A program made the translations under genes and the position numbers. Positions 3,184 to 62,181 of a stretch of 64,000 nucleotides of DNA are shown here, piece by piece. Position 1 is the first letter of the stretch. Every line of letters begins with the position of its first letter. The stretch is from Homoserinibacter sp. YIM 151385 (GTDB lineage Bacteria > Actinomycetota > Actinomycetes > Actinomycetales > Microbacteriaceae), in assembly GCF_027912415.1 (NCBI RefSeq), contig NZ_CP115175.1, positions 2,418,001 to 2,482,000 of the forward strand, written 5' to 3'. Under the pieces are notes generated by a model that saw only the letters and a list, made by a program, of their open reading frames with translations, made no database searches and was not told the DNA's origin.

Positions 3184-3261
3184 GCGCCCACGCTAGCCGC
3201 AACCGGCGACAGCCTGTGGATAACCGCGGCCGGGCTGCGAGGTCGTGGATAGCATCCCTGG

Positions 3262-27250: not shown

Positions 27251-27340
27251 CGGGGGCGGGGGCGGGGGGCGGAGGATGCGGCGGCCGAGTCGATCCGCAT
27301 CGGCTCGGCGGCAGGTGGTGCCGAGCCCGCGCGGCCGGCC

Positions 27341-28917: not shown

Positions 28918-28949
28918 AGGGCCGGGGCGGGGGCTCCTCGCGGAGCTCG

Positions 28950-47345: not shown

Positions 47346-50300
47346 TCAGCTCCGCCCGGCGGCGGGGCGGATGCGCAGGCCCTGCGGGGTCGCGGCGAAG
47401 CCGGCGCGCTGGAGGGCGTCGCCGAGCTCCGTGCCGACCGCGTACTCGCCGTCGATGCGCTCGATGCGGATGCGGCCGCCGCTCCCGCGGATGGTCGCGG
47501 CGAGTGAGGCGGCGGCGAGCTCGCGGAGTCTCGCCTCGTGCGCCTCGGCCCCCTCCGTCCAGGTCTCGGGGGGCGGCGGCGGCGGGAAGGTGAGCACCGT
47601 CTTGCCCCCGCGCTCGATGTAGAGCGCGAGGTGCCCGTCGACGAGGGTCACGAGCGCGCCCGCCTTGCGGCCCGGGCGATGCCCCTCGACGCCCGGCCAC
47701 GGCAGGGCGGCGCCGTAGGCGCTCGCGGGGTCGGTCGCGGCGAGGGTGACGGCGACGGGCTCGACGGCCCCGCGCGACTGGTCGGTGAAGGCGCGGAGGC
47801 GGTCGACCGTGGCGGGGGTCGCGAACTGCGCGGCGCCGAGCGCCTCGACGAAGTAGCCGCGGCGCGTGCGGCCCGTCTCCTCGAGCCCCGAGAGCACCTT
47901 GTACACGGTCGAGAAGCCGCCGCGCACGCCCTCCGCCTGCACGGCCCCCCGCGTGACGACGCCGTGCCGCTCGAGCAGCGACTCCGCGAGCGCGGTCGCC
48001 CGGATCGTCGTGCTCTCCTCGGGCGGCGGGAGGAGGCTCCAGCGGCCGGCGACCCGCGCATCCGAGCCGGTGGGGGAGGCGGCGGCGCGCGCGGTGCGGC
48101 GGGCGGCGGCCATCGCGGCGCGACCCCGGCGGCCCGTCGTGCGCGGACTCGCGGCGGCGGTGCGCGGGCGGGGCGGGGCGGCCCCGAGGCGTGCGCGGAG
48201 CGGCGCGAGCGTGTCGTTCGTGACGAGCCCCGACCAGGCGAGCTCCCAGAGGGCGCGGCTCAGCTCCTCGTCCGTCACGGCATCTCCCGTCGCGGCGAGG
48301 CTCATGCCGAGCTGGCGGAAGAAGAAGGCGCCCCCGGAGGCCAGCGCGTCGATGATGCGGCCGTGCAGCTCCTCGCGCGACTCGAGCGCGGGCTCCGGCA
48401 GCGTCAGGTGCGCCGTGTCGGCGAGGTGGAGGCCGAGCCAGCCGTCGCCGCCCGCGAGCTCGCCCGCGCCCGCCCACAGCACCTCGCCCGAGGAGGTGAG
48501 CTCGTCGAGCCAGGCGGGAGTGTAGTCGCGGACCCGCGAGGGGAGCACGAGCGACTCCCACGAGGAGGCCGGGAGGGCGAGGCCGCCGAGCTGGTCGATC
48601 GCGGTCACGAGGCCGTCGATGCCGCGCAGGCCGCCTGGCCGCAGCCCTGCCGCGCGCCCGCCGCCCTCCGCGGCCGCCGCACCCGAGCCGGGCGTGCCGA
48701 CGTGCTGCCAGTCGGCGAGGAACCGGGCGAGCGCCGGCTGCGGCACGGGCTCGACCTCGGAGCGGAGCGCCGCGAGCGAGCGGGCGCGGAGCCGGCGGAG
48801 CACCTCCGCCTCGACCCACTCGCCGCCCGAGGCGCCGGGACGGAACTCGCCCTCGACGACGCGGCGGTCGCCCGCGAGCCGCCGGAGCGCGTCGGCGACG
48901 ATCGCGACGCCGAGGCCGAGCCGGCGGGCCGCGTCCTCGACCGTGAAGGGCCCGTGCGTGCGGCTGTAGCGGCTCACGAGGTCGCCGACCGGGTCGGGCA
49001 TCGGGTCGAGGAACGCGCTCGGCACGCCGATCGGGAGCGGGACGCCGAGGGCGTCGCGCAGGCGGCTCGCGTCCTCGATGACGGCCCAGCGCGGCTCGCC
49101 GCCGACGCCGGCGCGGAGGATGCGGTTGGCGCGCGCCAGCTCCTCGAGCACGCCGCCCTCGGTGTCCTCGGCCTCGAGCACGCCCTCGCGCGAGCGGGCG
49201 CGCAGCTCCTCGCGCGTGAGCGGCCCGAGGATGCGGAGCAGGTCGACGAGCCCCTCGGCGTCCTTCGCGTGCCGCTCCTCGACGAGCCGCTGCAGCTCCA
49301 GCTCGGTCTGGTCGATGACGGCCGGGTCGAGCAGCTCGCGCAGCTCGGCGCGGCCGAGGAGCTCCGCGAGGAGCGTCGGGTCGAGGCTCAGCGCCGCGGC
49401 CCGCCGCTCGGCGAGCGGGGAGTCCCCCTCGTACATGAACGCCGCGACATATCCGAAGAGGAGGGTGCGCGCGAACGGCGAGGGCACCGCGGACTCGACC
49501 TCGACCATCCGCACGCGCCGCTGCGCGAGGTCGTCGGCGAGCTCGCCGAGCGAGGGGAGGTCGTAGACGTCCTGGAGGACCTCGCGCACCGTCTCGAGGA
49601 TGATCGGGAAGCTGGGGTGCTTGCGCGCCACCTCGAGCAGCTGCGCCGAGCGCTGCCGCTGCTGCCAGAGCGGCGAGCGGCGGCCGGGATCGCGGCGCGG
49701 CAGGAGCAGGGCCCTGGCCGCGCACTCGCGGAAGCGGCTCGCGAAGAGCGCGGAGCCGCCGACCTCGGTCGTCACGAGCTCGTCGAGCTCGGCCCGCTCG
49801 AAGCGGAACAGCTCGGCGCCGGGCGGCTCGGCATCCGTCTCCGGCAGCCGCACGACGATGCCGTCGTCGCCCGCCATCGCGGAGCCGTCGACGCCGTAGC
49901 GCTCCCGGATGCGCGCCGAGACCGCGAGCGCCCAGGGCGCGTGCACGGGCATGCCGTACGGGGAATGCATGACGATGCGCCAGTCGCCGAGCTCGTCGCG
50001 GAAGCGCTCGACGAGGAGCACGCGGTCGGTCGGGACGGTGCCCGTCGACTCCCGCTGCTCGGCGACGAAGGCGAGCAGGTTGTCGACCGCCCACTCGTCG
50101 AGCCCGCTCTCGCGGAGCCGCGCGCGCATCCCCTCGCCCTCGCTCGCGAGCTCGTGCGCGAAGCCGCCGATCGCGCGGCCGAGCTCGGCGGGGCGGCCGA
50201 GGCCGTCGCCCTTCCAGAACGGCACGCGGCCCGGCTGGCCGAAGGCGGGCGAGACGAGGACGCGGTCGCTCGTGATCTCCTCGATGCGCCAGCTCGTCGC

Positions 50301-52118
50301 GCCGAGCGCGAAGACGTCGCCGACGCGCGACTCGTAGACCATCTCCTCATCCAGCTCGCCCACTCGCCGCCCACCCGGCGAGTCGGCGTCCGAGCCGACG
50401 ATGAAGACGCCGAACATGCCCCGGTCGGGGATCGTGCCGCCGCTCGTCACGGCGAGGCGCTGCGCGCCGGGACGCCCCGCGATCGTGCCGGCCACGCGAT
50501 CCCAGACGATCCGGGGCCGGAGCTCCGCGAACTCGTCGCTCGGGTACCGCCCGCTGAGCAGGTCGAGCACCGACTCGTAGGCGCTCCGCGGCAGCGAGGC
50601 GAAGGGCGCGCTCGCCCGCACCCGCTCGAACCACTCCTCGACGTCGAGCTCGTCGAGCGCGACCGCGGCGACGGTCTGCTGGGCGAGGATGTCGAGGGGA
50701 TGCCGCGGCACGTGGAGCGCCTCGATCCCGCCCGTGCGCATCCGCTCGCTCACGACCGTCGTCGAGAGGAGGTCGGAGCGGTGCTTCGGGTAGAGCAGCC
50801 CCTTCGACACCTCGCCGACCTGATGCCCCGCGCGACCCACGCGCTGGAGCCCGCTCGCGACGCTCGGCGGCGACTCGACCTGGATCACGAGGTCGACGGC
50901 GCCCATGTCGATGCCGAGCTCGAGCGAGCTCGTCGCGACGACGCAGCGCAGCCGGCCCGACTTCAGGTCGTCCTCGATCTGGGCGCGCTGCTCCTTGCTC
51001 ACCGAGCCGTGGTGCGCGCGGGCGAGCAGCGGGATGTCGTGCTCGGCCTCGGCGGTCGCGGTGCCGCCCGGCGCGGGCGACGGCGCCCCGGCCGCCGCCG
51101 CGCCCGGCTGCCGCGTCACCCCCGAGCCGCCCACCGCCTCCGCCGGGAAGCGCGCCGGCGCGACGCCCGTCAGCCGCTCCTCGTGCACCTCGTTGAGCCG
51201 CGCCGTCAGCCGCTCGGCGAGGCGGCGCGAGTTCGCGAAGACGATCGTGGAGCGGTGGGCCAGGATGGCGTCGACGACGCTCTCGTCGACGTGCGGCCAG
51301 ATCGAGCCCGCCGACTGCAGGCCGCCCTCGCCGTCTGACCCCGCATCCTCCGAGCGCTGCCGTGTGCCGAGCTCGGTCATGTCCTCCACGGGCACGACCA
51401 CGCGGAGGTCGAAGCGCTTCTCGGAGGGCGGCGACACGATCGCGACCGGCGCCCGGCCGCCCAGGAAGCGGGCCACCTCCTCGACCGGCCGCACGGTCGC
51501 CGACAGCCCGATGCGCTGGGCGGGGCGGGCGAGCAGGGCGTCGAGCCGCTCGAGGGAGACGGCGAGATGCGCCCCGCGCTTCGTCGCCGCGATGGCGTGG
51601 ATCTCGTCGATCACGACCGTCTCGACCCCCGCGAGGGTCTCGCGCGCCGCGCTCGTGAGCATGAGGAAGAGCGACTCGGGCGTCGTGATGAGGATGTCGG
51701 GCGGGTCCTTCTGCAGCGCCCGCCGCTCGGCCGGCGGGGTGTCGCCCGAGCGGACGCCGACGCGGATCTCGGGCGGCTGCTCGCCGAGCCGCTTCGCCGT
51801 CTGGGTGATGCCGACCAGCGGCGCCCGGAGGTTGCGCTCGACGTCGACGCCGAGCGCCTTGAGCGGCGAGATGTAGAGCACCCGGGTCCGCTGCCTCGGG
51901 GACTCCGGCGGCGCCTCGCTCGCGAGCCGGTCGAGCGACCATAAGAAGGCCGAGAGAGTCTTGCCGGAGCCGGTGGGTGCGACGACGAGCGCGTGCCCGC
52001 CGCCCGAGATCGCCGACCACGCACCCGCCTGCGCCGCCGTGGGCGCGGGGAAGGCCCCGCGGAACCACTCTCGTGTCGCGGGGGAGAAGCGGTCGAGCAC
52101 CTCGTCCATCGCCTTCAT
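47346..52118 (-). CDS. lhr: Lhr-family ATP-dependent DNA helicase
   Basis: About 1,590 aa, the long actinobacterial Lhr. Walker A APTGSGKT (47-54), DEIH box in VVIDEIHAI, and motif VI-like QRVGRAGHQVG mark the SF2 core (about 1-550). The Lhr-core WH and extended C-terminal domains follow to the end. A Gly/Ala/Pro-rich insert splits the two RecA domains. Lhr unwinds DNA-RNA and DNA-DNA hybrids in repair. The start could be 52109, 52118 or 52139. Upstream lies the 60-bp palindrome at 52183-52242. Confidence 0.9.
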   Translation of the reverse strand: MKAMDEVLDRFSPATREWFRGAFPAPTAAQAGAWSAISGGGHALVVAPTGSGKTLSAFLWSLDRLASEAPPESPRQRTRVLYISPLKALGVDVERNLRAPLVGITQTAKRLGEQPPEIRVGVRSGDTPPAERRALQKDPPDILITTPESLFLMLTSAARETLAGVETVVIDEIHAIAATKRGAHLAVSLERLDALLARPAQRIGLSATVRPVEEVARFLGGRAPVAIVSPPSEKRFDLRVVVPVEDMTELGTRQRSEDAGSDGEGGLQSAGSIWPHVDESVVDAILAHRSTIVFANSRRLAERLTARLNEVHEERLTGVAPARFPAEAVGGSGVTRQPGAAAAGAPSPAPGGTATAEAEHDIPLLARAHHGSVSKEQRAQIEDDLKSGRLRCVVATSSLELGIDMGAVDLVIQVESPPSVASGLQRVGRAGHQVGEVSKGLLYPKHRSDLLSTTVVSERMRTGGIEALHVPRHPLDILAQQTVAAVALDELDVEEWFERVRASAPFASLPRSAYESVLDLLSGRYPSDEFAELRPRIVWDRVAGTIAGRPGAQRLAVTSGGTIPDRGMFGVFIVGSDADSPGGRRVGELDEEMVYESRVGDVFALGATSWRIEEITSDRVLVSPAFGQPGRVPFWKGDGLGRPAELGRAIGGFAHELASEGEGMRARLRESGLDEWAVDNLLAFVAEQRESTGTVPTDRVLLVERFRDELGDWRIVMHSPYGMPVHAPWALAVSARIRERYGVDGSAMAGDDGIVVRLPETDAEPPGAELFRFERAELDELVTTEVGGSALFASRFRECAARALLLPRRDPGRRSPLWQQRQRSAQLLEVARKHPSFPIILETVREVLQDVYDLPSLGELADDLAQRRVRMVEVESAVPSPFARTLLFGYVAAFMYEGDSPLAERRAAALSLDPTLLAELLGRAELRELLDPAVIDQTELELQRLVEERHAKDAEGLVDLLRILGPLTREELRARSREGVLEAEDTEGGVLEELARANRILRAGVGGEPRWAVIEDASRLRDALGVPLPIGVPSAFLDPMPDPVGDLVSRYSRTHGPFTVEDAARRLGLGVAIVADALRRLAGDRRVVEGEFRPGASGGEWVEAEVLRRLRARSLAALRSEVEPVPQPALARFLADWQHVGTPGSGAAAAEGGGRAAGLRPGGLRGIDGLVTAIDQLGGLALPASSWESLVLPSRVRDYTPAWLDELTSSGEVLWAGAGELAGGDGWLGLHLADTAHLTLPEPALESREELHGRIIDALASGGAFFFRQLGMSLAATGDAVTDEELSRALWELAWSGLVTNDTLAPLRARLGAAPPRPRTAAASPRTTGRRGRAAMAAARRTARAAASPTGSDARVAGRWSLLPPPEESTTIRATALAESLLERHGVVTRGAVQAEGVRGGFSTVYKVLSGLEETGRTRRGYFVEALGAAQFATPATVDRLRAFTDQSRGAVEPVAVTLAATDPASAYGAALPWPGVEGHRPGRKAGALVTLVDGHLALYIERGGKTVLTFPPPPPPETWTEGAEAHEARLRELAAASLAATIRGSGGRIRIERIDGEYAVGTELGDALQRAGFAATPQGLRIRPAAGRS

Positions 52119-52182: not shown

Positions 52183-52242
52183 AGGTGGGTTTCTCCGCAC
52201 TCGCCGCGAGGATCCGCGCGGCGAGTGCGGAGAAACCCACCT
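52183..52242. repeat. Long intergenic palindrome between lhr and the NHEJ polymerase gene
   Basis: Perfect 26-bp arms: left 52183-52208 (AGGTGGGTTTCTCCGCACTC...) and right 52217-52242, with 8-nt loop AGGATCCG. A small competing dyad CCACCTG/CAGGTGG (52174-52188) shares the left arm's end. It lies between divergent genes, so it is not a terminator for either. It matches the 59.6-kb palindrome in length, layout and most bases, with paired substitutions in the arms. Confidence 0.85.
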
Positions 52243-52272
52243 CTCCGGGGAGGGAGGGCGTAGCGTTGCGGC

Positions 52273-53292
52273 ATGGCCAGCGAGGCGGCGAAGCTCGAGG
52301 TCCCGGGACCGCACGGCGTGCGCGAGATGCGCGTGTCGAGTCCCGGTCGCGTCATCTGGCCCGAGTCCGGCACCACGAAGCTGCAGCTCGCCGAGTACCT
52401 CGTCGCGGTCGCCGAGCCCTTCCTCCGGCACGACGGCGGCCGGCCCATCTCCCTGCAGCGCTACCCGGGCGACATCTCGAGCGACTGGTTCTTCTCGAAG
52501 AACCCGCCCAAGGGCGCACCCGACTGGATCCGCACCGCGACCGTCGCCTACCCGAGCGGGCGCCGGCATCCCCAGCTCGTCGTCGACGAGATCGCCGCCG
52601 CCGTCTGGATGGCGCAGATGAACACGCTCGTCTTCCACCCCTGGCCGGCGACCGCGGAGGACAGCGACCACCCCGACCAGCTCCGCCTCGACCTCGACCC
52701 GCAGCCCGGGCGCGGCTACGCCGACGCCGTCGAGGTCGCGCTCGTGCTCCGCGGGCTGCTGCAGGAGGTCGGGCTCGAGCCGGTCGTCAAGACGAGCGGC
52801 AACCGCGGCCTCCACGTCGTCGCCGCGATCCGGCCCGAGCACGACTACATCGAGGTGCGGCACGCCGTCATCGCGGTCGCGCGCGAGCTCGAGCGCCGCC
52901 TGCCCGACGACGTCACGACCTCCTGGTGGAAGGAGGAGCGCGGCGAGCGCATCTTCATCGACTACAACCAGGCCGCCCGCGACCGCACGACCGCCGGCGC
53001 CTACAGCCCTCGCGCGACACCCGGCGCGACCGTCTCGACGCCGCTCGCGTGGGACGAGCTGCCCGGCTCCGACCCCGCCGAGCACACGATCGCGACCGTG
53101 CCCGCGCGACTCGCCTCGCTCGGCGACCCGTGGGAGGGATGGGATGCGGCGCCCGGCAGCATCCGCCCGCTCCTGGAGTGGTGGGAGCGGGACGCGGCGG
53201 CCGGCCTCGGCGAGCTCGTCTACCCGCCCGACTACCCCAAGATGCCGGGCGAGCCGCCGCGCGTCGCGCCGAGCCGGGCCAAGAAGGACTGA
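52273..53292 (+). CDS. LigD-type NHEJ polymerase/primase domain protein
   Basis: 339 aa stand-alone PolDom of the archaeo-eukaryotic primase superfamily. Catalytic carboxylates are in LRLDLDPQPG (Asp140, Asp142), with SGNRGLHVVAAI (about 178-189) and a later Asp in RIFIDYNQAAR. In many bacteria this domain is fused to a ligase as LigD; here a separate ligase gene is convergent 6 nt away. It fills gaps with nucleotides, often ribonucleotides, during end joining. TAGCGT at 52261-52266 is 6 nt before the ATG (leaderless). Confidence 0.88.
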   Translation: MASEAAKLEVPGPHGVREMRVSSPGRVIWPESGTTKLQLAEYLVAVAEPFLRHDGGRPISLQRYPGDISSDWFFSKNPPKGAPDWIRTATVAYPSGRRHPQLVVDEIAAAVWMAQMNTLVFHPWPATAEDSDHPDQLRLDLDPQPGRGYADAVEVALVLRGLLQEVGLEPVVKTSGNRGLHVVAAIRPEHDYIEVRHAVIAVARELERRLPDDVTTSWWKEERGERIFIDYNQAARDRTTAGAYSPRATPGATVSTPLAWDELPGSDPAEHTIATVPARLASLGDPWEGWDAAPGSIRPLLEWWERDAAAGLGELVYPPDYPKMPGEPPRVAPSRAKKD

Positions 53293-53298
53293 GCCCGC

Positions 53299-54357
53299 TC
53301 AGGCTCGGCCGAGGACTTCGGCGAGGTCGTACGACGCCGGCACCTCGAGCTGCGCGAAGGTGCACGAGGCGGCGTCCCGGTCCGGCCGCCAGCGTCGGAA
53401 CTGCGCCGAGTGCCGGAATCTCGCGCCCTCCATCTGGTCGTAGCGCACCTCGACGACGCGCTCGGGCCGCAGCCGCACGAAGCTCGTGTCGCGACCCGAG
53501 CTGAAGCGGTTCCGCTCGCCCTCGCCGCGCACCGCCTCCCCGTCCGCGTCGCGCTCCACGAGCGGCTCGAGCTCCTCGACGAGCTCCGCGCGCCGCGCCG
53601 TGGTGAACGCCGAGACGCCCCCGACGCTGCGCAGCTCGCCGTCGTCGTAGAGGCCGAGCAGCAGCGAGCCGATCCCCGTGCCGGATCTGTGGATGCGGTA
53701 GCCGATCACGACCGCATCCGCCGTGCGCTCGTGCTTGATCTTGAGCATGGTGCGCTTGCCGGGCTGATACGGCTGCTCGAGCGGCTTCGCGACCACGCCG
53801 TCGAGGCCGGCGCCCTCGAAGTCCTCGAGCCAGCGGCCGGCGAGCTCCGCGTCGGCGGTCGTGCGCGTCAGATGCAGCGGCGGCTGCGCGTCGGCGAGCA
53901 GCGCCTCGAGTCGCTCGCGGCGCTCCCGGAACGGCAGGTCGAGCCGCGGCTCGCCGTCCTCCTGGAGCAGGTCGAAGGCGACGAGCGAGGCCGGCGTCTC
54001 GGCCGCGAGCCGCTCGATGCGCGAGGCCGCGGGGTGGATGCGCTGCGACAGCGCCTCCCAGTCGAGCCGCTCGGCGCCGAGCTCGCCGCGGCGCACCACG
54101 ATCTCGCCGTCGAGCACCGTGCCGGATGCCAGCTGCGCCTCGAGCGCCGACACCAGCTCCGGGAAGTAGCGCGTGAGCAGCTTGCCGCCGCGGCTGCCCA
54201 GCTCGACGCGGCCCTCGGCGTCGACGGCGACGATCGCGCGGAAGCCGTCCCATTTCGGCTCGAAGCGCAACCCGCCCGCGACGGCGTCGGCCGCGGGCAC
54301 CGCGGCGACCGCCTTCGCGAGCATCGGCTCGAGGGATGCGTCGACCGGCTCCGTCAT
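53299..54357 (-). CDS. ATP-dependent DNA ligase (LigC/LigD-ligase type)
   Basis: 352 aa. The adenylation lysine is Lys35 in EPKWDGFRA; further nucleotidyltransferase motifs are LDGEIV (motif III region), DGVVAKPLE (motif IV) and MLKIKHERTADAVVIG (motif V). An OB-fold C-terminus ends the protein. This is the size and form of actinobacterial NHEJ ligases. TAGCCT at 54364-54369 is 6 nt before the ATG. Ku is not seen in the window. Confidence 0.88.
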   Translation of the reverse strand: MTEPVDASLEPMLAKAVAAVPAADAVAGGLRFEPKWDGFRAIVAVDAEGRVELGSRGGKLLTRYFPELVSALEAQLASGTVLDGEIVVRRGELGAERLDWEALSQRIHPAASRIERLAAETPASLVAFDLLQEDGEPRLDLPFRERRERLEALLADAQPPLHLTRTTADAELAGRWLEDFEGAGLDGVVAKPLEQPYQPGKRTMLKIKHERTADAVVIGYRIHRSGTGIGSLLLGLYDDGELRSVGGVSAFTTARRAELVEELEPLVERDADGEAVRGEGERNRFSSGRDTSFVRLRPERVVEVRYDQMEGARFRHSAQFRRWRPDRDAASCTFAQLEVPASYDLAEVLGRA

Positions 54358-54366
54358 GCCCGCAGG

Positions 54367-55011
54367 CTAGTCGCGCCGAGCGTCCGCGAGCCGGTCCCGC
54401 AGGAAGCTCACGACATCCGCGAGCTCCTGCGGCGAGACGCCGTGGCCGAGCTGCTCGTAGGCGCCGAGCACGAGCGCGCTGTGGCCGGGCAGGAAGTCGA
54501 GCGTGCGGTCGATGGCCGCGGCCGGGATGACGGGGTCGGCGAGACCGCGCCCGTAGAAGACCGGCGGTCGCCGCTCGGCCAGCACGGCATCCCCCGGCTG
54601 CTCGGCGGTCGCGGCGAAGCCGGCGAGGTTCACGACGTAGTCGATCGCGTCGGGATCCCGGCGGAGCGCCTCGAGGGCGATCGCGCCGCCCTGCGAGAAG
54701 CCGAGGAGCCCGACGCTCGAGGCCTCGCCGCGGTTCGCCGCCACCCACGCCAGCACGGCATCCGCGGCGGGGTCGACCCGCTCCGGCACGGGCGCGCCCG
54801 GCACAGCGCCGTCGAGCGAGAACCAGGCGTAGCCGGGACCCTCGCGCCGCGGCGCGCGGAGGGAGGCGATCGTGAGCTCGAGCGGGAGCTGCGGCGAGAG
54901 CCCGAAGAGGTCGCCCTCGTGGCTGCCGTAGCCGTGCAGCAGCACGAGGAGCGGCCGACCGGGGCGCTCGGCCTCCGGGGTCGACCAGATGACGGCGTCG
55001 GAATCGATCAC
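54367..55011 (-). CDS. Alpha/beta hydrolase (phospholipase/carboxylesterase family)
   Basis: 214 aa from GTG 55011. LLVLLHGYGSHEGDLFGL (oxyanion strand), nucleophile motif GFSQGG (about 116-121), and the catalytic Asp/His in GRGLADPVIP and EQLGHGVSP are all present. Small esterases of this type hydrolyse short-chain esters. The start is set by TACCGT (minus strand, 55019-55024) 7 nt before this GTG; longer starts overlap the NUDIX promoter. Divergent from the NUDIX-like gene. Confidence 0.8.
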   Translation of the reverse strand: MIDSDAVIWSTPEAERPGRPLLVLLHGYGSHEGDLFGLSPQLPLELTIASLRAPRREGPGYAWFSLDGAVPGAPVPERVDPAADAVLAWVAANRGEASSVGLLGFSQGGAIALEALRRDPDAIDYVVNLAGFAATAEQPGDAVLAERRPPVFYGRGLADPVIPAAAIDRTLDFLPGHSALVLGAYEQLGHGVSPQELADVVSFLRDRLADARRD

Positions 55012-55045
55012 GCGCACGACGGTAGCCGACCGGTAAGAATGGAGC

Positions 55046-55621
55046 ATGGCCTCCGTCGGCACCCCTGACCCTGATCCGATCCCCGAGCCGCCGCGTCCCG
55101 ACGCGAGCTCCTCGTGGCTGAGCGACGCCGAGCTCGAGGACGTGCGCCGCCGCCTCCCGCTGCTCTACGTCGAGGCGGTGCCGGTGCGGGTCGACGGGAT
55201 GGGCGTCGTGACGAGCGTCGGCATCCTGCTCCGCGCGAACGCGCAGGGCTCCATCACGCGCACGCTCGTGAGCGGCCGCGTCATGTTCGGCGAGACGCTG
55301 CGCGATGCGCTCTTCCGCCACCTGGAGAAGGATCTCGGGCCCATGGCGTTCCCGCAGCTGCCGCCGTCGCCGGTGCCGTTCTCGGTCGCCGAGTACTTCC
55401 CGATCCCGGGGCTCAGCGCCTATATCGACGAGCGGCAGCACGCCGTCTCGCTCGCCTACGTCGTGCCGGTCACGGGCACCTGCGAGCCGCGCCAGGATGC
55501 CCTCGAGCTCACCTGGATGACGCCCGCCGAGGCCTCGAGCGCCGCCGTCCACGCCGAGATGGAGGGCGGGCGCGGCACCCTGCTCCGCGCGGCCCTCGCC
55601 TCGGTCGGCGTGCTCGGCTAG
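55046..55621 (+). CDS. NUDIX-like family protein (DUF4916)
   Basis: 191 aa. The degenerate NUDIX helix appears in GRVMFGETLRDALFRHLEKD; canonical REVxEE glutamates are not all kept, which is usual for this actinobacterial subgroup annotated as DUF4916. Flanking beta strands (LLYVEAVPVRVDG, AVSLAYVVPVTGTCEPR) fit the fold. It may bind or hydrolyse nucleotides, but catalysis is unsure. A TAAGAAT element lies just before the ATG. Confidence 0.7.
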   Translation: MASVGTPDPDPIPEPPRPDASSSWLSDAELEDVRRRLPLLYVEAVPVRVDGMGVVTSVGILLRANAQGSITRTLVSGRVMFGETLRDALFRHLEKDLGPMAFPQLPPSPVPFSVAEYFPIPGLSAYIDERQHAVSLAYVVPVTGTCEPRQDALELTWMTPAEASSAAVHAEMEGGRGTLLRAALASVGVLG

Positions 55622-55704
55622 CGCTCGGCTCCGGCGCGCCGATCCGACGCGCCGGAGGCCGCCCCGGCGTCGCGCGGGAGCGGCCTCCTGTGCATGGCTC
55701 GCGT

Positions 55705-57273
55705 TCAGCGCCCGCCCTGGCGGCGCCCGCCGCCGTTCTGCCGCACGACCGAGCCCACCATGAGCTTGCCCGAGCCGCCGCCCTGCGCGGCGCCGGCACG
55801 GCGGCCGGTGCGACGGCCGTTCGACTTCGGGGTCTCGCCCGTCTTGACGCCCTCGGGGCGGCCCGAGCGGTCGCGTCGGGGCTGGCCGACGCGCGCCTCG
55901 CCCTGCGCCGTGTCGCGCGCGCCGCGGCCGTCGCCCTGCGCGCCGCCGCGACCGGAGCCCTGCCCGCGCCCGCCGCGCCCGCCCGCGCCGCCGCGCGTGC
56001 CGGCATCCCGCTGGTCCTGCTTGCGGCGGGCGTTCGCGCCCGTCGAGCGCCCGCCGCCGCCCTGCTGCACCCGCTGGACGGGCTTCGGCGCGACGTACGG
56101 CGCGACGTCGCCGACGAGCTCCGACACCGCCGGGGACTCGGCGGAGACGCGCTGCGGCTCGACCGCGATCGCCGCCTTGCGGAGCAGCTTCGCGAGGTCG
56201 CCGCGCTGCTCGGGGAGCGAGATCGTCACGACCGCGCCCTCGGCGCCCGCGCGGGCGGTGCGGCCCGATCGGTGCAGGTACGCCTTGTGCTCCATGGGCG
56301 GGTCGACGTGGACGACGAGCTCGACGTCGTCGACGTGCACGCCCCGCGCCGCGACATCCGTCGCCACCATGACGCGGACCGAGCCCTCGCCGAAGGCGGC
56401 GAGGTTGCGGTCGCGCTGCGGCTGGCTGAGGTTGCCGTGCAGGTCGACCGCGGGGATGCCGGAGGCGGTGAGCTGCTGCGCGAGACGCTTCGCGTGGTGC
56501 TTCGTGCGCATGAAGAGGATGCGGCGGCCGGTGCCCGAGGCGAGGGTGCGCACGAGTTCCTTCTTCGCGTCGACCGACTCCACCTCGAAGACCGTGTGGC
56601 TCATGGCCTCGACGGGCGAGGTCGCCTCGTCGACGGAGTGGAGCACCTCGTCGCGCAGGAACCGGCGCACGAGCTTGTCGACGCCGTTGTCGAGCGTCGC
56701 GCTGAAGAGCAGGCGCTGGCCGTCGGCGGGGGTGGCGTCGAGGATGCGGGTCACCCCGGGCAGGAAGCCCAGGTCGGCCATGTGGTCGGCCTCGTCGAGC
56801 ACCGTGATCTCGATCGCGTCGAGGCGCACGTGCTTCTGCTGCATGAGGTCCTCGAGGCGGCCCGGGCAGGCGACGATGATGTCGACGCCGGCCTGGAGGG
56901 CCTGCACCTGGCGGTTCTGGCTCACGCCGCCGTAGATGGTGGTCGTCTTCAGGCCGTAGGCCTCGGCGAGCGGTGCGAGGGTCGCGGCGATCTGGGTCGC
57001 GAGCTCGCGGGTCGGCGCGAGCACGAGGCCGAGCGGGCGGCCGGCGCGGCGCGAGCCGCCCCCGAGGGCGCCGCCGAGGCGGGCGACCATGGGGATCGAG
57101 AAGGCGAGGGTCTTGCCGGAGCCGGTGCGGCCGCGGCCGAGCACGTCGCGTCCGGCGAGCGTGTCGGGGAGGGTGTCGGCCTGGATGGGGAAGGGCGCCG
57201 TCTTGCCGTCCGCGGCGAGGGCGGCGACGATCGGGGCGGGCACGCCGAGCGTTCTGAAGGTCGTGTCGGACAC
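55705..57273 (-). CDS. DEAD-box RNA helicase with RGG-rich tail
   Basis: 522 aa from GTG 57273. Q-motif and Walker A (GRTGSGKT, 48-55), DEAD in VLDEADHMADLGF, SAT, and motif VI HRSGRTARAG are present. The C-terminal ~120 aa are a disordered Arg/Gly/Gln-rich tail (RGGAGGRGGRGQGSGRGG) suited to RNA binding. Such helicases remodel RNA, often in cold stress. The ~209-bp gap upstream (57274-57482) has no gene and could encode a long 5' UTR. Confidence 0.88.
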   Translation of the reverse strand: MSDTTFRTLGVPAPIVAALAADGKTAPFPIQADTLPDTLAGRDVLGRGRTGSGKTLAFSIPMVARLGGALGGGSRRAGRPLGLVLAPTRELATQIAATLAPLAEAYGLKTTTIYGGVSQNRQVQALQAGVDIIVACPGRLEDLMQQKHVRLDAIEITVLDEADHMADLGFLPGVTRILDATPADGQRLLFSATLDNGVDKLVRRFLRDEVLHSVDEATSPVEAMSHTVFEVESVDAKKELVRTLASGTGRRILFMRTKHHAKRLAQQLTASGIPAVDLHGNLSQPQRDRNLAAFGEGSVRVMVATDVAARGVHVDDVELVVHVDPPMEHKAYLHRSGRTARAGAEGAVVTISLPEQRGDLAKLLRKAAIAVEPQRVSAESPAVSELVGDVAPYVAPKPVQRVQQGGGGRSTGANARRKQDQRDAGTRGGAGGRGGRGQGSGRGGAQGDGRGARDTAQGEARVGQPRRDRSGRPEGVKTGETPKSNGRRTGRRAGAAQGGGSGKLMVGSVVRQNGGGRRQGGR

Positions 57274-57482
57274 GTGGTGCTTTCTGTCGGGTGCCGGCGG
57301 CGCGCAGGCGCGCGCGACCGGATCTGGCGACGATGCCGTCGGCATCGAAGTTCGCCGGAGAAGATGTCAGCCGGGCGGATCGGGCCGCGATCCGGAGCGG
57401 GTCCGAGGTCGGGGCGATCGTGGCGGCGAGGGAGCGTTCTACGACGCGAGAGCGCGATCATCGCGCTGCAGGTGAACCGAGT

Positions 57483-58118
57483 CTAGCCGGAGACCGCCCG
57501 CATCCGCTCCCCGACAGGCACCTCGACCTCCAGCCGGTTGCCCGGCTGCGCGAGCGGGCACGCCCAGGCGGGGTCGTAGGCGCACGAGGGGTTGTAGGCG
57601 AAGTTGAGGTCGACGACGAGCGTCTCGGGCGGCCGGCCGGGGCCGAGATCGGCGCCCTTCACGGTGTCGAGGAGGTAGCGCCCGGCGCCGTAGGTGCCGC
57701 CCGGGCGCCCCGCGAGCGCGTCCTTGACGGGCAGGAACAGCCCGCCGCCGTAGGAGGCGAGCCGCCAGAGGTCGAGCGATCCGGCCCCCGGGATCTCCAC
57801 GCGGCCCAGCAGCTCGAACGGGACCCGGCCGTCGGTGCCCGTCTCGACCTCGATCCTCCGCGGCTCCTCCGCCGCGATCACGGGCAGCTCGAAGCGCCAG
57901 GCGGGGTCGTAGCCCGGCACGGGCACGCCGGCGAAGTCGGCGCGCTCGGCGTCGGGGATGGGGGTCGCGGGATGCGAGCGCAGCAGCTCGTCGCGCTCGG
58001 CGACCCAGCGGGCGTGGGCCGCGGCGGGGTCGGCCTCGGCGCGCACCCGCTCGTACATCGAGAACACGCGACGGCGCCAGTCGGCGACGTCGACCGCGGT
58101 GCGGATCGCGGGGCTCAT
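57483..58118 (-). CDS. DUF1684 protein
   Basis: 211 aa. DUF1684 hallmarks are DWRRRVFSMYERVRAEA near the start, LWRLASYGGGLFLPVKDALAG in the middle and LVVDLNFAYNPSCAYDPAW near the end, where the Asn-Pro-x-Cys-x-Tyr segment is strongly conserved in the family. Function unknown; a metal or hydrolase role has been suggested by its conserved polar set only. ATG overlaps the upstream stop (ATGA). Confidence 0.78.
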   Translation of the reverse strand: MSPAIRTAVDVADWRRRVFSMYERVRAEADPAAAHARWVAERDELLRSHPATPIPDAERADFAGVPVPGYDPAWRFELPVIAAEEPRRIEVETGTDGRVPFELLGRVEIPGAGSLDLWRLASYGGGLFLPVKDALAGRPGGTYGAGRYLLDTVKGADLGPGRPPETLVVDLNFAYNPSCAYDPAWACPLAQPGNRLEVEVPVGERMRAVSG

Positions 58119-58594
58119 GCCGCCGCCTTCCGGCCGCGACGGGCCGCGAGGCGCTGGATCCGCATCCCCCGCCACTGCCACATCGCCCAGTACATCGGCC
58201 ACATCGCGATCGCGATCGGACCGCGCGTGTCGAGGCGGTCGCGGTAGAGGGTGCGGCCCGAGGGCGCCGGGGTGACCGCCATGCGGTGGCGCCAGTCGCC
58301 GACCGTGCCGAGGAGCCCCGCGACCGGGCCGCCGTCGTCGGTGAGGATGCGCGTCTCGCCGCGCGTCTCGCTGCCGAGCTCGACGCGCGCCTCCCCGACC
58401 GGGAGGAGCCCGAGGAGGCGGAGCTCGATCGGGTAGCCGGGGCCCTCCTCCCAGCGCGCCGGCATCCGCGAGCCGTCGAGCATCCGCGCCCGCAGCCAGG
58501 GGCCGAGGCAGTACCGCATCCCGGCGCTCTCGTGGAGGAGCTCCCAGGCCTCGTCGGCGGTGCAGTCGAGCTCGAGTCGCAGGGTCACGCGCAT
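58115..58594 (-). CDS. SRPBCC/START-like small protein
   Basis: 159 aa. The start MRVTLRLELDCTADEAWELL and following beta strands are the usual entry of the SRPBCC ligand-binding fold; a C-terminal helix with MWPMYWAMWQWRGMRIQRL is typical of the group containing a hydrophobic cavity. It could bind a lipid or other hydrophobic ligand. Coupled by 4 nt to the DUF1684 gene. Family match is moderate. Confidence 0.6.
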   Translation of the reverse strand: MRVTLRLELDCTADEAWELLHESAGMRYCLGPWLRARMLDGSRMPARWEEGPGYPIELRLLGLLPVGEARVELGSETRGETRILTDDGGPVAGLLGTVGDWRHRMAVTPAPSGRTLYRDRLDTRGPIAIAMWPMYWAMWQWRGMRIQRLAARRGRKAAA

Positions 58595-58676
58595 GCCCCC
58601 AGTCTGCGCCAGCCGCCGTGACGCCGCATGACCTCGCGGCCCGCACCCAGTCCGGGGCGCCGCTAGCCTCGTCAGC

Positions 58677-59186
58677 GTGAGCGAGGCGCAGGGCGACTAC
58701 CAGGTCCGGTTCGAGTGGGGCGCGGCGGGGGCGGCGCAGGTGGCGCAGGATGCCGACGTCCTCGTCTGGGTCGACCAGCTCGGCGAGCAGCCCGCCCCCG
58801 AGGCGCCCGCGGGCGTCGCCGTCGTGCACGGCACGATCCAGTCGAGCGCCGCGATCGGCGCCTGGTCGCTCGCGCGGCAGGAGGCCCTCGGCGGCCGCTT
58901 CCGCATCGCGGTCGTCGCGGCGGGGGAGCCGCGCGCCGACGGCAGTCTCCGATTCGCGGTCGAGGACCTCCTCGCGGCGGGCGCGGTCATCGAGGAGATC
59001 GCCGCCCTCGGCATCGACCACCAGTCGCCCGAGGCCGCGGCGGCCGCCTCGGCGCACACGGGGCTCCGCCGGGCGACCCGCCATCTGCTCTCGGCGTCCG
59101 TCACCGCGCGGGCGGCGGGCGGCATCCGGCTCGACCTCGATCCTGTGGATGCGGTCACCGTCCTGCGGGAGTCCGCCCCGGCGTGA
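58677..59186 (+). CDS. 2-phosphosulfolactate phosphatase-family (ComB-like) protein
   Basis: 169 aa from GTG 58677. YQVRFEWGAAGA at the start, then a central FRIAVVAAGEPRADGSLRFA with DLLAAGAVIEEIAALGI, and HLLSASVTARAAGG near the end match the ComB family. True ComB acts in coenzyme M synthesis; actinobacterial homologues lack that pathway, so the substrate is likely different. The protein is shorter than ComB (~230 aa). TAGCCT lies 7 nt before the GTG. Confidence 0.7.
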   Translation: MSEAQGDYQVRFEWGAAGAAQVAQDADVLVWVDQLGEQPAPEAPAGVAVVHGTIQSSAAIGAWSLARQEALGGRFRIAVVAAGEPRADGSLRFAVEDLLAAGAVIEEIAALGIDHQSPEAAAAASAHTGLRRATRHLLSASVTARAAGGIRLDLDPVDAVTVLRESAPA

Positions 59187-59243
59187 TCGGATGAGAATCC
59201 GGCGAGCGCACCGGCGCCGCCCTCACCGAGCACGGAGGTCGTC

Positions 59244-59549
59244 ATGCCCAAGGCCGTCATCAACGGAGTCGTCATCGCGGAGGCGCCCGAGTCGGAGGTC
59301 TTCCACATCGAGGGGAACGTCTACTTCCCGCCGTCGAGCGTGAAGACCGAGCTCCTCAAGGAGAGCCCGACCCCCTACACCTGCCCCTGGAAGGGCGCCT
59401 GCCAGTACTACTCGGTGGACGACGGCGGCACCTGGCTGCAGGACCGCGCCTTCGCCTACCCGGATCTCTACGACGGCGCGGTCGAGCGCGTCGGCGGCGA
59501 CTTCGCCGGCTACATCGTGTTCTGGAAGGAGGTGCAGGTCACCGACTGA
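59244..59549 (+). CDS. DUF427 protein
   Basis: 101 aa. DUF427 signature elements are visible: VYFPPSSVKTELLKES, then TPYTCPWKGACQYYSV and AFAYPDLYDGA. The fold is a compact beta-rich domain of unknown function with a conserved Cys pair (TCPWKGAC). A GGAGG site precedes the ATG. Upstream of the 64-bp palindrome, convergent with the CGNR gene. Confidence 0.82.
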   Translation: MPKAVINGVVIAEAPESEVFHIEGNVYFPPSSVKTELLKESPTPYTCPWKGACQYYSVDDGGTWLQDRAFAYPDLYDGAVERVGGDFAGYIVFWKEVQVTD

Positions 59550-59585
59550 CCTGCCCTCCTCTCACCCGTCCCGCCACGCTCGCCC

Positions 59586-59649
59586 AGATGTGAGTTTTTC
59601 CGCATTCGCACCGAGGATCCTCGGTGCGAATGCGGAAAAACTCACATCT
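59586..59649. repeat. 64-bp perfect palindrome between DUF427 and CGNR genes
   Basis: Every base of 59586-59617 is the complement of its mirror in 59618-59649, centred on GGATCC, with no unpaired loop in DNA form. It lies between convergent genes, and its right end covers the CGNR stop codon (59642-59644). The T-run in GTGAGTTTTTCC could aid termination, but the length far exceeds need. It shares the consensus GTGRGTTTYTCCGCAYTCGC with the 52.2-kb palindrome. Confidence 0.9.
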
Positions 59650-60274
59650 CGGGACGGGATATGACGCGGGCGGCGCGCGCCGCAGCGGCGCGCTCGCGGT
59701 GTGCCCGCACCTTCGCGCGGTTGCCGCAGCGCTGCATCGAGCACCAGCGGCGGTTGCGCGTGCGCGACTCGTCGCGGAACACCAGACGGCAGTCGTCCGC
59801 CTCGCAGCGCCGCAGCCGCCCCTCGTCCTCGCCGAGCACCGCGATCGCATCCCGCGCGAGGCTCGAGAGCGCCTGTGCGACGCGAAGGCGGCCGGCGCCC
59901 GCCTGACGTGCGCCGCCCGGGAGCGCGGGCGGGATGTCGGGCATCGCGGCGTAGAGGTTGAGCGTGTCGACGTCGTCGGGCGCCGGCTCCTCGCCGTCCA
60001 CGACGGCGGTCGCGAGGCGGGAGATCGCGCCGCGCAGCGCGAGCGCGTCGAGGAGCTCGCGCGGGCCCGCATCCTCGGCCGCGAGGCGCGGCTCGCGCTC
60101 GGCGAGCCAGGCGCCGAGGTCGCGCGGCTCGCGGAGGCGCTCCCAGGCGTCGACGCCCAGACCCCGGTCGCCTGTATAGGCGAAGTCGAGGCTCGGCGCG
60201 CCCGCGTCGAAGCGCCAGCGCCGGCCGTCGCCCGAGATGATCCACTGGCCGGGGCCGTCGGAGGGATGTCGCAT
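59642..60274 (-). CDS. CGNR zinc-finger transcriptional regulator
   Basis: 210 aa. The N-terminal ABATE (stress-induced, ligand-binding) domain opens with WRFDAGAPSLDFAYTGD, and the C-terminal zinc finger is CEADDCRLVFRDESRTRNRR followed by WCSMQRCGNRAKVRAHR, the defining CGNR. Such proteins bind DNA and are probably autoregulated. TACATT at 60281-60286 (minus strand) sits 6 nt before the ATG (leaderless), inside a 25-bp inverted repeat that covers the start codon. Confidence 0.82.
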   Translation of the reverse strand: MRHPSDGPGQWIISGDGRRWRFDAGAPSLDFAYTGDRGLGVDAWERLREPRDLGAWLAEREPRLAAEDAGPRELLDALALRGAISRLATAVVDGEEPAPDDVDTLNLYAAMPDIPPALPGGARQAGAGRLRVAQALSSLARDAIAVLGEDEGRLRRCEADDCRLVFRDESRTRNRRWCSMQRCGNRAKVRAHRERAAAARAARVISRPEM

Positions 60275-60400: not shown

Positions 60401-60892
60401 TCATGCGATCAGCGTCGAGCCGCCCTCCGACGAGCGGGAGGCGTCGCGTCGACGCCACTCGATCGCGAGCGCCGGATCGAAGCGCCGCGAGCACTTCGCG
60501 CAGCTGAGCACGCGCGTCGGCTTCCGGTAGCGGTAGTGCTCGTGGCCGTTCGGGCACTCGCCGATCCAGGTCGCGAGCTCGCTCGCGATCGCCCCGTCGT
60601 GGAGGCGGGAGCCGACGTAGCCGAGCTCCGCCGCCGTCTGCTTCCAGCGGGTGCCGTGCCCGGCGCGCGGCCCCGCGATCGCGTGCGCGACCTCGTGCAG
60701 CAGCACCTGGTGGATCTCGTCGTCGTCGAAGCGCCCCGCGAGGTGCCGCGAGACCGTGATCCGCTTGCGCCCGTAGTCGCACTGGCCGGCGCGCGTCTTC
60801 GCGGCGTCGAAGGCGAAGGTCCAGACAGCGGGGTCGAGGTGCAGCCTGATGAGCGCCTCCGCCCAGTGCCGCACGCGGTCCAGCTCTGCCAT
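60401..60892 (-). CDS. SprT-like zinc metalloprotein
   Basis: 163 aa. The metalloprotease motif HEVAH is in IHQVLLHEVAHAIAG (about 71-85), and a zinc-ribbon follows with ECPNGH and VLSCAKCSRRF. SprT/Spartan relatives degrade DNA-protein crosslinks; bacterial SprT function is unclear. Its ATG shares one base with the upstream stop (TGATG), so it is coupled to the sugar dehydrogenase gene. Confidence 0.78.
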   Translation of the reverse strand: MAELDRVRHWAEALIRLHLDPAVWTFAFDAAKTRAGQCDYGRKRITVSRHLAGRFDDDEIHQVLLHEVAHAIAGPRAGHGTRWKQTAAELGYVGSRLHDGAIASELATWIGECPNGHEHYRYRKPTRVLSCAKCSRRFDPALAIEWRRRDASRSSEGGSTLIA

Positions 60893-62022
60893 CAGCCCTC
60901 CCTCGGCGCGTCGAGCCGCACCTCGAGGAGGCGGTCGGCGCCGGGCTCGCCGCCGCGGTCTCCGTTGCTCGTGATGAAGCGGAGCGTCTCGCCGTCCGGC
61001 CCCGGCTGCACGTGCCGGATGCGCCCGAACTCGCCCTCGAACCAGGCGACGGCGGAGACGCTCGACGCATCCTCGCTCGGGGACAGCGCCCAGACGCGCT
61101 CGCCGCGGAGCGCCGCGAGGAAGAGGGTGCCGCGCACCGCCGTCAGCCCGCTCGGGCTCGCCTCCGCGGTCGACCACTGGTGCACGGGGTCGATGAAGCG
61201 CTCGTCGCCGGCCTCGCCCTCGACGACGGGCCAGCCGTAGTCGCCGCCCGGCTCGATCAGGTTGAGCTCATCCCAGGTGTCCTGCCCGAACTCGGCCGCC
61301 CACATCCGGCCCCGGTCGTCCCAGGCGAGGCCCTGCGGGTTCCGGTGCCCCATCGTGTAGACGGGCGAGCCTGGGTCGGGGTTGTCCTCGGGCACGCCGC
61401 CCTGCGGCGTCAGGCGGAGGATCTTGCCGTTGAGGGATGCCGGATCCTGCGAGAGCGCGGTGTCGGAGGCGTCGCCCGTCGTCGCGTACAGCATGCCGTC
61501 GGGCCCGAAGGCGATGCGGCCGCCGTTGTGGTTGCCGGCCTTGCGGATGCCGTCGAGGACCACCTCGGCGGCGGCCGTGTCGAGCTCCGGGGCGCTCGCC
61601 GCGTCGCCGTCGCCGAGCTCGAGCGGCATCCGGATGATCCGGTTGTCCTCGGCGCTCGTGGTGAAGGCGTAGAGCCAGGTGGTCTGCTCGGCCTCGTCCG
61701 TCCAGCGGGCGATGCCGAGCAGGCCGCCCTCGCCGCCGGGCTCGACGCCCGGCACCTCGCCGAGGACGGTCTCCCGGCCCTCCGCGTCGAGGTGCTTCAC
61801 GAGCGCGGTGTCGCGCTCGGAGAGGATCGTCGTGCCGTCGTCGAGCAGCTCGAAGGACCACGGCGTCGTGAGGCCGTCGGTGAGCTCGACGACCTCGCCG
61901 ACCGGGACGCGGCTGTCGGAGTCCGGCGGGAGCTCGGCCGTGCTCGGACTGCAGCCGGCGAGCGCGCCGAGCGCGAGCGCCGCGGCGCCCGCGATCGCGA
62001 TCCGTGCCGTCGTGCGCCTCAT
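60892..62022 (-). CDS. PQQ-dependent sugar dehydrogenase-type lipoprotein
   Basis: 376 aa. A signal peptide ends in the lipobox LGALAGC (Cys24). The beta-propeller of glucose/sorbosone dehydrogenases is shown by LTTPWSFELLDDG, NHNGGRIAFGPDGMLY (about 165-180) and GHRNPQGLAWD (about 224-234), where His/Arg/Asn residues contact PQQ and calcium. It is expected outside the membrane, oxidising an aldose if PQQ is available. GAGAAT lies 6 nt before the ATG. Confidence 0.82.
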   Translation of the reverse strand: MRRTTARIAIAGAAALALGALAGCSPSTAELPPDSDSRVPVGEVVELTDGLTTPWSFELLDDGTTILSERDTALVKHLDAEGRETVLGEVPGVEPGGEGGLLGIARWTDEAEQTTWLYAFTTSAEDNRIIRMPLELGDGDAASAPELDTAAAEVVLDGIRKAGNHNGGRIAFGPDGMLYATTGDASDTALSQDPASLNGKILRLTPQGGVPEDNPDPGSPVYTMGHRNPQGLAWDDRGRMWAAEFGQDTWDELNLIEPGGDYGWPVVEGEAGDERFIDPVHQWSTAEASPSGLTAVRGTLFLAALRGERVWALSPSEDASSVSAVAWFEGEFGRIRHVQPGPDGETLRFITSNGDRGGEPGADRLLEVRLDAPREG

Positions 62023-62122
62023 GCCGTCATTCTCGCCGACGATCCCGCGCTCCGGCCGGGAGCCGCGTCCGCGCCGCATCCCGGGACCCGGTCCTCGCGT
62101 GGCCCGCGCGCGCCACGCCGCG

Positions 62123-62181
62123 GTGAGGGGTCCCATATGACGGATTCCGCGGGGCTGGAGTGGTCATCTGGGACCCCTCAC
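62123..62181. repeat. Intergenic hairpin between spermidine-synthase-like and sugar dehydrogenase genes
   Basis: GTGAGGGGTCCCATATGAC (62123-62141) pairs with GTCATCTGGGACCCCTCAC (62163-62181), 18 of 19 pairs, around a 21-nt loop containing ATTCCGCGGGG. It lies about 100 bp upstream of the sugar-dehydrogenase start and 27 nt after the spermidine-synthase-like stop (minus strand). It may be a terminator, but the 19-bp arms and the GTGAG entry recall the two longer palindromes. Confidence 0.7.

Follow-up and report, generated by a model that had tools for sequence, protein, structure and literature searches.

A lineage-specific family of dispersed palindromes near gene 3' ends in Homoserinibacter sp. 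YIM 151385

The two palindromes and their neighbouring genes

The window, the whole 64,000-nucleotide stretch of the Homoserinibacter sp. YIM 151385 genome that was analysed, contains two long palindromes, which like their centres are given without strand. Copy 1 (52183..52242; in the model's frame, genome positions 2470180-2470245) carries the conserved core TTTCTCCGC on the plus strand at 52190..52198, a central GGATCC at 52210..52215 and the same core on the minus strand at 52227..52235; 29 of its 30 mirrored positions are paired. Copy 2 (59586..59649) is a perfect palindrome of 64 bp. Its left core, TTTTTCCGC (59595..59603, plus strand), has a C to T change that is mirrored in the right arm, where the right core occupies 59632..59640 on the minus strand; its central GGATCC lies at 59615..59620.

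Copy 1 is flanked by divergent genes. A large helicase-like ORF on the minus strand (47346..52109), which we take to be of the Lhr type, starts 73 nt to its left, and a plus-strand gene (52273..53292), presumably LigD polymerase-domain-like, starts 30 nt to its right. The genes around copy 2 converge. The upstream plus-strand gene (59244..59549), which we assume to be DUF427-like, ends about 36-38 nt left of the palindrome, and the minus-strand gene on the right (59642..60274), presumably of the CGNR zinc finger type, has its stop codon, at 59642, within the outer right arm. All gene calls come from a custom codon-usage script, not from annotation. The presence and positions of both palindromes, their common consensus with mirrored differences, and the two gene contexts agree with the initial annotation of this DNA.

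None of 200 shuffled sequences was as stable as either palindrome, with folding z-scores of -11.4 to -13.5, so neither is a product of chance. In 464 kb of this genome, the window included, the two have the highest palindrome scores (32 and 27), the next being 21. An Rfam scan of the window gave no match above the gathering score at either palindrome, its sole listing being a tRNA, and a terminator scan of the window called neither of them.

Copy number, sequence and placement of the family

The 2.88-Mb genome contains 28 copies of the element, the window pair included, corresponding to 56 matches over both strands (28 forward and 28 reverse, with none in either direction for a backward-pattern control). 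The dispersed, REP-like hairpin family proposed from the sequence of the window is thus supported; the initial annotation had named a lack of further copies as the finding that would speak against it. The copies are near-perfect palindromes of about 60-66 bp with the consensus TTTCTCCGC...GGATCC...GCGGAGAAA at a fixed spacing: all 24 exact places had the 46-nt spacing, though the search let the gap vary from 8 to 14 on either side of the centre. GGATC is present at the centre of all 28 copies and GGATCC in 27, and the arms abut the centre directly. Core and centre are nearly invariant, and the pairs lying between them vary. By the custom gene calls, all copies lie outside genes or reach a few bases into the end of one, save the copy at 1708359, where one gene was called straight across the element.

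Placement of the copies is strongly biased towards gene 3' ends. Fifteen copies lie between convergent genes, 12 between tandem genes and one between divergent genes; against 269 background gaps, convergent sites are enriched (15/28 versus 38/269, p=1e-6) and divergent sites depleted (1/28 versus 63/269, p=0.005). A stop codon is found within 101 nt of 26 of the 28 copies and within 26 nt of 22. Among the tandem copies, 11 of 12 are closer to the stop than to the next start, often at 26 nt or less in wide gaps. The two copies away from stop codons are the window copy at 52183 and one at 2491402, which precedes a gene start by 51 nt and has its nearest called stop 828 nt away. It had been argued from the two window contexts that a common terminator function would not account for both palindromes. 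As an argument against a 3' end role this fails, since the window copy between divergent genes is exceptional among the 28. Base skew in the sampled stretches seems to follow the gene strand and revealed no origin or terminus.

Distribution and a look-alike family in Promicromonospora

None of four congeners carries the element, and it was absent from all 20 congener regions fetched for seven sites (20 of 21 possible regions; both flanking genes matched in 9 and one in 11). In a search of 299 genomes, three matched: the genome itself and two weak cases (L052 and L053) that do not resemble the element family. This search was insensitive, scoring 17 candidates per genome and recovering 17 of the 56 own matches. 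A 398-genome search gave a single match in one other genome, and a 396-genome search a single match in each of two others. The exact GGATCC form had no match in a genome-contig database, from which records of the own or very near genomes may be excluded. Spread by phages or plasmids was considered and rejected: phages gave no match, viral contigs no exact match, and plasmids three weak partial matches (E 0.1-0.4). Six viral matches to a looser pattern do not resemble the family. Absence from relatives had been put forward as counting against a real family. The four congeners do lack it; Promicromonospora stands on the other side if its palindromes are related, a kinship that is unproven because they were found through a shared 10-mer.

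A look-alike palindrome occurs in Promicromonospora genomes, in numbers from about 3 up to at least 75; it differs from the Homoserinibacter family in its centre and in a spacing between cores that is 12 bp shorter. Placement was examined in 40 copies taken from the best-scoring matches listed (for sukumoe 20 out of at least 75, for iranensis UTMC 00792 15 out of about 29, and for MEB111 5 out of about 48), a sampling that favours consensus-like copies. Of these, 24 were convergent, 16 tandem and none divergent; 34 lay within 60 nt of a stop and four at 148-342 nt, and only 12 of the 16 tandem copies were closer to the stop. Nine of the 40 also belong to another set of 17; three rows, L132 (edge), L248 (span) and L255 (empty), were excluded. 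Both arms carry the core TTTCTTCGC in 19 of the 20 sukumoe copies sampled and in 4 of 5 from MEB111, and in none of 15 from iranensis.

The evidence for selection, concerted evolution and occupancy of orthologous sites comes only from Promicromonospora. At eight orthologous sites in two iranensis strains, 456 of 502 columns were identical within the element versus 1210 of 1817 in the intergenic sequence outside it; the element total includes one pair (L124@2339) with a 22-nt insertion inside the element and 56 of 82 columns identical. Cross-species orthologous pairs (n=8), drawn from a comparison covering the sukumoe and iranensis copies above, 9 of about 48 MEB111 copies, one more iranensis copy and five second-strain copies, a sampling with the same bias, differ at 10-16 of 60 positions, and paralogues within a species at 5.1-8.8 on average. 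In 11 orthologous pairs, 46 offsets were altered in both arms with pairing kept, versus 22 altered in one arm. Conservation at fixed sites while copies change in step suggests, as far as sequence comparison goes, that the Promicromonospora palindromes are a real gene-end signal.

Paired changes and the choice between explanations

The covariation of the arms seen in the window pair extends to the family. Over 28 copies, 16 of 31 pairs are altered on both sides, giving 64 paired cells versus 30.2 in shuffles and a covariation score of 0.200 versus 0.114 expected; at variable offsets, mirror identity within a copy exceeds identity between copies (19 versus 10.2 at offset 25, for example). The initial annotation took this covariation as a sign that structure itself is selected, a step that is not supported. 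DNA template switching makes and keeps perfect stems and leaves the same signature of paired changes, as described in PMC8794818, and on the transcript strand G.U pairs do not exceed A.C (17 versus 19 at 12 own and 16 Promicromonospora tandem sites, a comparison of low power). At the own non-tandem copies, with the strand taken from whichever stop is nearer, the counts are 5 and 15, and at Promicromonospora convergent sites, where the strand is arbitrary, 1 and 11.

These counts bear on the reading of the copies as ordinary RNA hairpin terminators, alike by common descent and covarying under selection for RNA pairing. A stable, G+C-rich hairpin is present behind the stop codon (stability from the two window copies, position from 26 of 28), and the paired changes would fit. 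However, there is no U-tract: T is not concentrated 3' of the hairpin (mean 1.23 per 12 nt over 56 strand-sides, two of which have four T, versus a background of 1.62), the loop is conserved, and a G.U excess is lacking. We consider this reading quite improbable. Bidirectional intrinsic terminators likewise follow stop codons directly and are enriched between convergent genes, but here the stems are of 30 bp and sequence is conserved family-wide, loop included. Moreover, an ordinary-looking terminator can share a site with the palindrome: between rpsT and holA, what looks like a short rpsT terminator is kept beside it, so the palindrome would not be the sole terminator there. Least probable would be functionless quasipalindromes perfected by the template switching of PMC8794818. 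Copy-specific mirrored extension into the flanks is weakly present (p=0.005 at one offset and 0.02-0.09 at three others in the own copies; p=0.01-0.11 in Promicromonospora). The same weak signal gave little for the idea that the elements inserted into older hairpin loops, which we dropped. A mutational origin leaves the common sequence of dispersed copies and their 3' end placement unexplained, as well as conservation above surrounding DNA, which already weakens it for the look-alike family.

A purely selfish, nonautonomous mobile hairpin of REPIN or MITE type, with no host function and surviving behind genes, is a more serious rival, though we think it rather unlikely. The copies are dispersed, related in sequence and lineage-specific, with none in the four congeners; gene ends would be the least harmful landing sites, and clustering at 3' ends is known for REP-type repeats (PMC1590033). 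Against it, the RAYT or IS200-type partner that had been suggested did not appear: PF01797 (RAYT, Y1), the one transposase model searched, matched neither the own genome nor any of five Promicromonospora genomes that carry similar families (E<=0.001), and matched 5 of 14 well-known genomes in a control. Since E. coli genomes without RAYT may still hold REPINs, according to PMC8049555, this absence lowers the case for REPIN/RAYT membership without excluding it. No gene bounded by arms was apparent among half-arm matches, and no target duplication was detected across the 28 copies (longest direct repeats 3.29 versus 3.23 in permuted flanks, p=0.40, with ends uncertain for want of an empty site). 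The better conservation of orthologous Promicromonospora elements than of their surroundings, and the closeness of 11 of 12 tandem copies to the stop, also stand against a selfish element. A further possibility, to our minds unlikely, is a DNA site for a putative sequence-specific protein (a roadblock terminator, nucleoid or segregation protein) that contacts TTTCTCCGC and GGATCC, with copies following a changing specificity. The near-invariance of core and centre beside variable intervening pairs, a loop conserved beyond the needs of RNA pairing, the species-specific core TTTCTTCGC and the lack of G.U excess favour such a site. Against it, centre and spacing are not those of the look-alike family, where the spacing is shorter, and 28 sites per 2.88 Mb are few.

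The likenesses to known systems are partial. Like REPIN/REP with RAYT, the palindromes are dispersed intergenic inverted-repeat hairpins, often behind genes, that persist as populations within a genome. On the other hand, no Y1/RAYT gene was found in the six genomes tested, and REPINs consist of two REPs around a short, highly diverse spacer whereas this family has a conserved GGATCC centre and near-perfect full-length arms. Neisseria DUS and Haemophilus USS form inverted pairs that serve as terminators and number thousands of copies; the repeated sequence paired at gene ends is similar, but here there are tens of copies and a long palindrome. MITEs (Correia/NEMIS, ERIC) are also short, nonautonomous palindromic repeats dispersed in genomes, but in this family there is neither a detected target duplication nor a partner transposase, and the core rather than the tips is best conserved.

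The best reading is a RAYT-less, REPIN-like palindrome family whose arms are homogenised at the DNA level. We put at roughly one in two the probability that it is a lineage-specific, dispersed family retained at gene 3' ends and acting as bidirectional gene-end elements, judging from sequence and position. Under this reading each copy, by its position, would mark or make the 3' ends of transcripts arriving from both sides, as a bidirectional terminator, processing site or roadblock without the canonical hairpin and U-tract. Arm identity would be maintained mainly by template switching inside the palindrome, and the copies would resemble one another through occasional conversion or re-copying from site to site, or through tracking a sequence-specific binding factor. 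Dispersal would have proceeded without a recognisable present-day RAYT (Y1) transposase, in a population that works like REPINs but lacks their known enzyme. It is conceivable, though we would not expect it, that some Micrococcales have dedicated bidirectional gene-end palindromes read as double-stranded DNA by a putative sequence-specific factor, which would halt convergent transcription or insulate against it. The copies would then co-evolve with that factor, and palindrome copying would serve to spread and repair them in the absence of RAYT.

Covarying base pairs are commonly read as proof that an RNA structure is under selection, and here paired changes are abundant without strand-specific wobble support. 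Promicromonospora offers a setting in which site conservation, concerted change and the failure to find RAYT are all testable. Should the elements prove to end transcription in the absence of a U-tract, they would be relevant to the way in which high-GC Actinobacteria keep convergent genes apart.

The palindrome family and its anatomy

The two palindromes of the window, at 52183-52242 (between divergent genes) and 59586-59649 (between convergent genes), lie where the initial annotation placed them and are as it described. As single strands they fold at -56 to -58 kcal/mol, with z-scores of -11.4 to -13.5 and equally stable shuffles in 0/200. In a palindrome scan of 464 kb of this genome, including the window, they scored 32 and 27, with 21 for the runner-up. 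The half-arm pattern GAGTTTYTCCGCAYTCGC, taken from these two copies and run with up to 3 mismatches on the 2,881,328-bp genome, matched at 33 sites in forward and 34 in reverse orientation (backward control, 0 and 1), from which 28 palindromic places were extracted. A pattern built from the 28 copies recovered the identical places and none extra (28/28; control 0/0). The proposed whole-genome covariance search likewise revealed further copies: the model built from these copies, R1, gave 56 matches over both strands at E<=0.1, all of them falling on these 28 places. The copies form a real family. None of the 28 lies in C1:1-543810, the opening 0.54 Mb of the contig.

For the alignment we took 66 nt of each copy with GGATCC in the middle, and the lack of gaps is therefore in part by construction; copy 1563844 has lost one base in the outer left arm. 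The blocks TTTCTCCGC, CGC and GGATCC are nearly invariant, with variable columns between them, and on either side conservation declines at a distance of about 30-32 bases from the centre. Spacing is fixed: although 8-14 bases were allowed on each side of the centre, the core-to-core span is 46 nt at every one of the 24 exact places. Across the 28 copies 87.9% of cells are paired. Changes on both sides occur in 16 of 31 pairs, amounting to 64 cells vs 30.2 in shuffles and at most 12 in slid structures; the mirrored, pairing-preserving differences reported for two copies are therefore family-wide. Arms match better within a copy than between copies, as at offset 25 (19/28 vs 10.2 expected) and at offset 12 (24 vs 16.3).

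Other repeats were seen. At two places the left half-arm is repeated in tandem, the repeats running through to the end of the full palindrome, as three 29-bp units (L040, about 2977-3100) and two 25-bp units (L033, about 3156-3245). The window has a second repeat, present twice (27124-27272 and 28799-28933) at a length of about 160 nt, in which inverted arms CCCCCTTCCGAAATGCAGGACC / GGTCCTGCATTTCGGAAGGGG enclose a 53-nt centre; the mean column identity of the two stretches of about 220 nt is 90%. Near 2.00 Mb in this genome, a hairpin pair with common arms GTGCCCGAACAGCC (L153, 2713-2782 and 16894-16953) is a possible third palindromic repeat family. At window positions 62123-62181, 19-nt inverted arms GTGAGGGGTCCCATATGAC / GTCATCTGGGACCCCTCAC, 21 nt apart, lie upstream of a minus-strand gene called at 60892-62079.

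Position relative to genes

Our own codon-usage gene finder puts 15 copies in convergent, 12 in tandem and 1 in divergent gaps. The background, counted over 464 kb for gaps measuring 10 nt or more, is 38 convergent, 63 divergent and 168 tandem. Convergent gaps are enriched (p=1e-6; p=0.007 with equal weight per 3' end) and divergent gaps depleted (p=0.005). The distance between a stop codon and the start of the element is at most 101 nt in 26/28 copies and at most 26 nt in 22/28, some overlapping the stop, and 11/12 tandem copies are closer to the stop than to the next start. The exceptions are window copy 52183 and copy 2491402, the latter lying 51 nt upstream of a gene start, with the nearest called stop 828 nt away. 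The argument that a shared terminator role does not explain both window copies thus relied on an exceptional copy and falls. At 1708359, the minus-strand gene as called runs across the palindrome; congeners carry stop codons there. In many bacteria stem-loops and REPs are known to cluster at gene 3' ends and between convergent genes (PMC1590033, PMC6060812), so there is nothing new in the placement as such.

Relatives and a look-alike family

The element is absent from 4/4 congeners searched, and no other sampled Microbacteriaceae genome has a multi-copy family, the others giving single matches; genomes with a match, including this one, numbered 3/299 in a low-sensitivity search and 2/398 in a second. 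For 7 element sites, 20 regions were taken from three congeners (78-80% identity at one test gene), and the palindrome is missing from 20/20. Both flanking genes were matched in 9 regions, presumably the rpsT-holA, metB and ABC-transporter loci, and one flank in the other 11. At rpsT><holA in this genome an apparent short G+C-rich terminator is retained adjoining the palindrome. In 400 kb of one congener no palindrome scored 20 or more.

A scan of genome_contigs for GTTTCTCCGC...GCGGAGAAAC returned 40 stretches. Promicromonospora, which belongs to the order Micrococcales, contributed 18. Of these 18, the 17 that were scored hold palindromes 56-82 bp long, 7 of them convergent, 10 tandem and none divergent, and provided a second model, R2. 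It matched 58 and 64 times in the two strains of iranensis, 6 times in AC04, 96 in MEB111 and at least 150 in sukumoe. Because most places match on both strands, the corresponding numbers of places are about 29, 32, 3 and 48, with no fewer than 75 in sukumoe. Forty copies drawn from the best-scoring hits, nine also among the 17, comprise 24 convergent, 16 tandem and 0 divergent; the distance to a stop is at most 30 nt in 26/40 and at most 60 nt in 34/40, and 12/16 tandem copies are closer to the stop than to the start. Kinship with the present family is unproven because the search selected for the core. Among 396 genomes of the order the best R2 match is our genome (47.8 bits; next genome 38 bits), a ranking that is partly circular because R2 was trained on core-selected copies. 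Weak R2 matches in L218 and L220 (genome G671) and L219 (G648) are short palindromes with GAGGTC/GAGGCC and GTTTC, as in Promicromonospora. In Prevotella sp. RGIG4392, of an unrelated phylum, half-arms GTTTCTCCGCTAAAC are repeated in both orientations (L100, L116, L131), perhaps a chance similarity of a REP-like repeat.

At 8 orthologous sites of the two iranensis strains, element columns are identical at 456/502 positions and the remaining intergenic DNA at 1210/1817 (gaps counted as differences; one pair has an insertion; 7 sites with alignments). Several elements are also found at orthologous places when sukumoe/MEB111 are compared with iranensis. Eight such pairs, with BLAST matches over the element or both flanks in L228-L249, L233-L251 and L260-L243 and over one adjacent flank in the other five, differ at 10-16 (mean 13.6) of 60 positions, against averages of 5.1-8.8 between copies of one species, the latter distances somewhat lowered because best-scoring copies were chosen. 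Across 11 orthologous pairs, 259 of 330 offsets are unchanged, 46 changed in two arms with pairing kept, 22 in one arm and 3 otherwise. Among best-scoring copies, the core TTTCTTCGC is in both arms in 19/20 from sukumoe, 4/5 from MEB111 and 0/15 from iranensis. These signs of conservation at fixed sites and of concerted change between copies come from Promicromonospora.

Maintenance and possible function

Were RNA pairing selected, G.U should exceed A.C on the transcript strand. No such excess appears at our tandem sites (10 vs 13) or when these are pooled with Promicromonospora (17 vs 19, at low power). Among the few unpaired cells at non-tandem sites G.U is rarer than A.C, 5 vs 15 here and 1 vs 11 in Promicromonospora (among L223-L262; strand arbitrary). 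DNA template switching is known to create and maintain perfect stems and to yield multi-base compensatory changes (PMC8794818), and it accounts for the paired changes with no need of selection on RNA. Taken by itself, covariation is therefore no proof of a functional RNA here, and the suggestion that it shows the structure itself to be kept is not supported. Conservation of core and centre argues for sequence recognition. The element is not of the canonical intrinsic-terminator type: it lacks a T-tract (mean 1.23 T in 12 nt over 56 strand-sides vs a background of 1.62), and a terminator scan called neither window copy. From its placement, the element is predicted to affect transcripts arriving from either side.

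The RAYT/IS200-type transposase proposed as a companion did not emerge: PF01797, the RAYT domain, had no match in our genome, nor in the five Promicromonospora genomes searched. No target duplication was apparent in the flanks of the copies. REPINs (PMC8049555) are the nearest analogue, but neither a RAYT match nor a diverse spacer was found here. In the open-licence literature we found no published description of a RAYT-less, concerted long-palindrome family. The initial observation is thus confirmed and its interpretation supported in part. The family is probably kept as putative bidirectional gene-end elements, and is a new variant of dispersed palindromic repeats.
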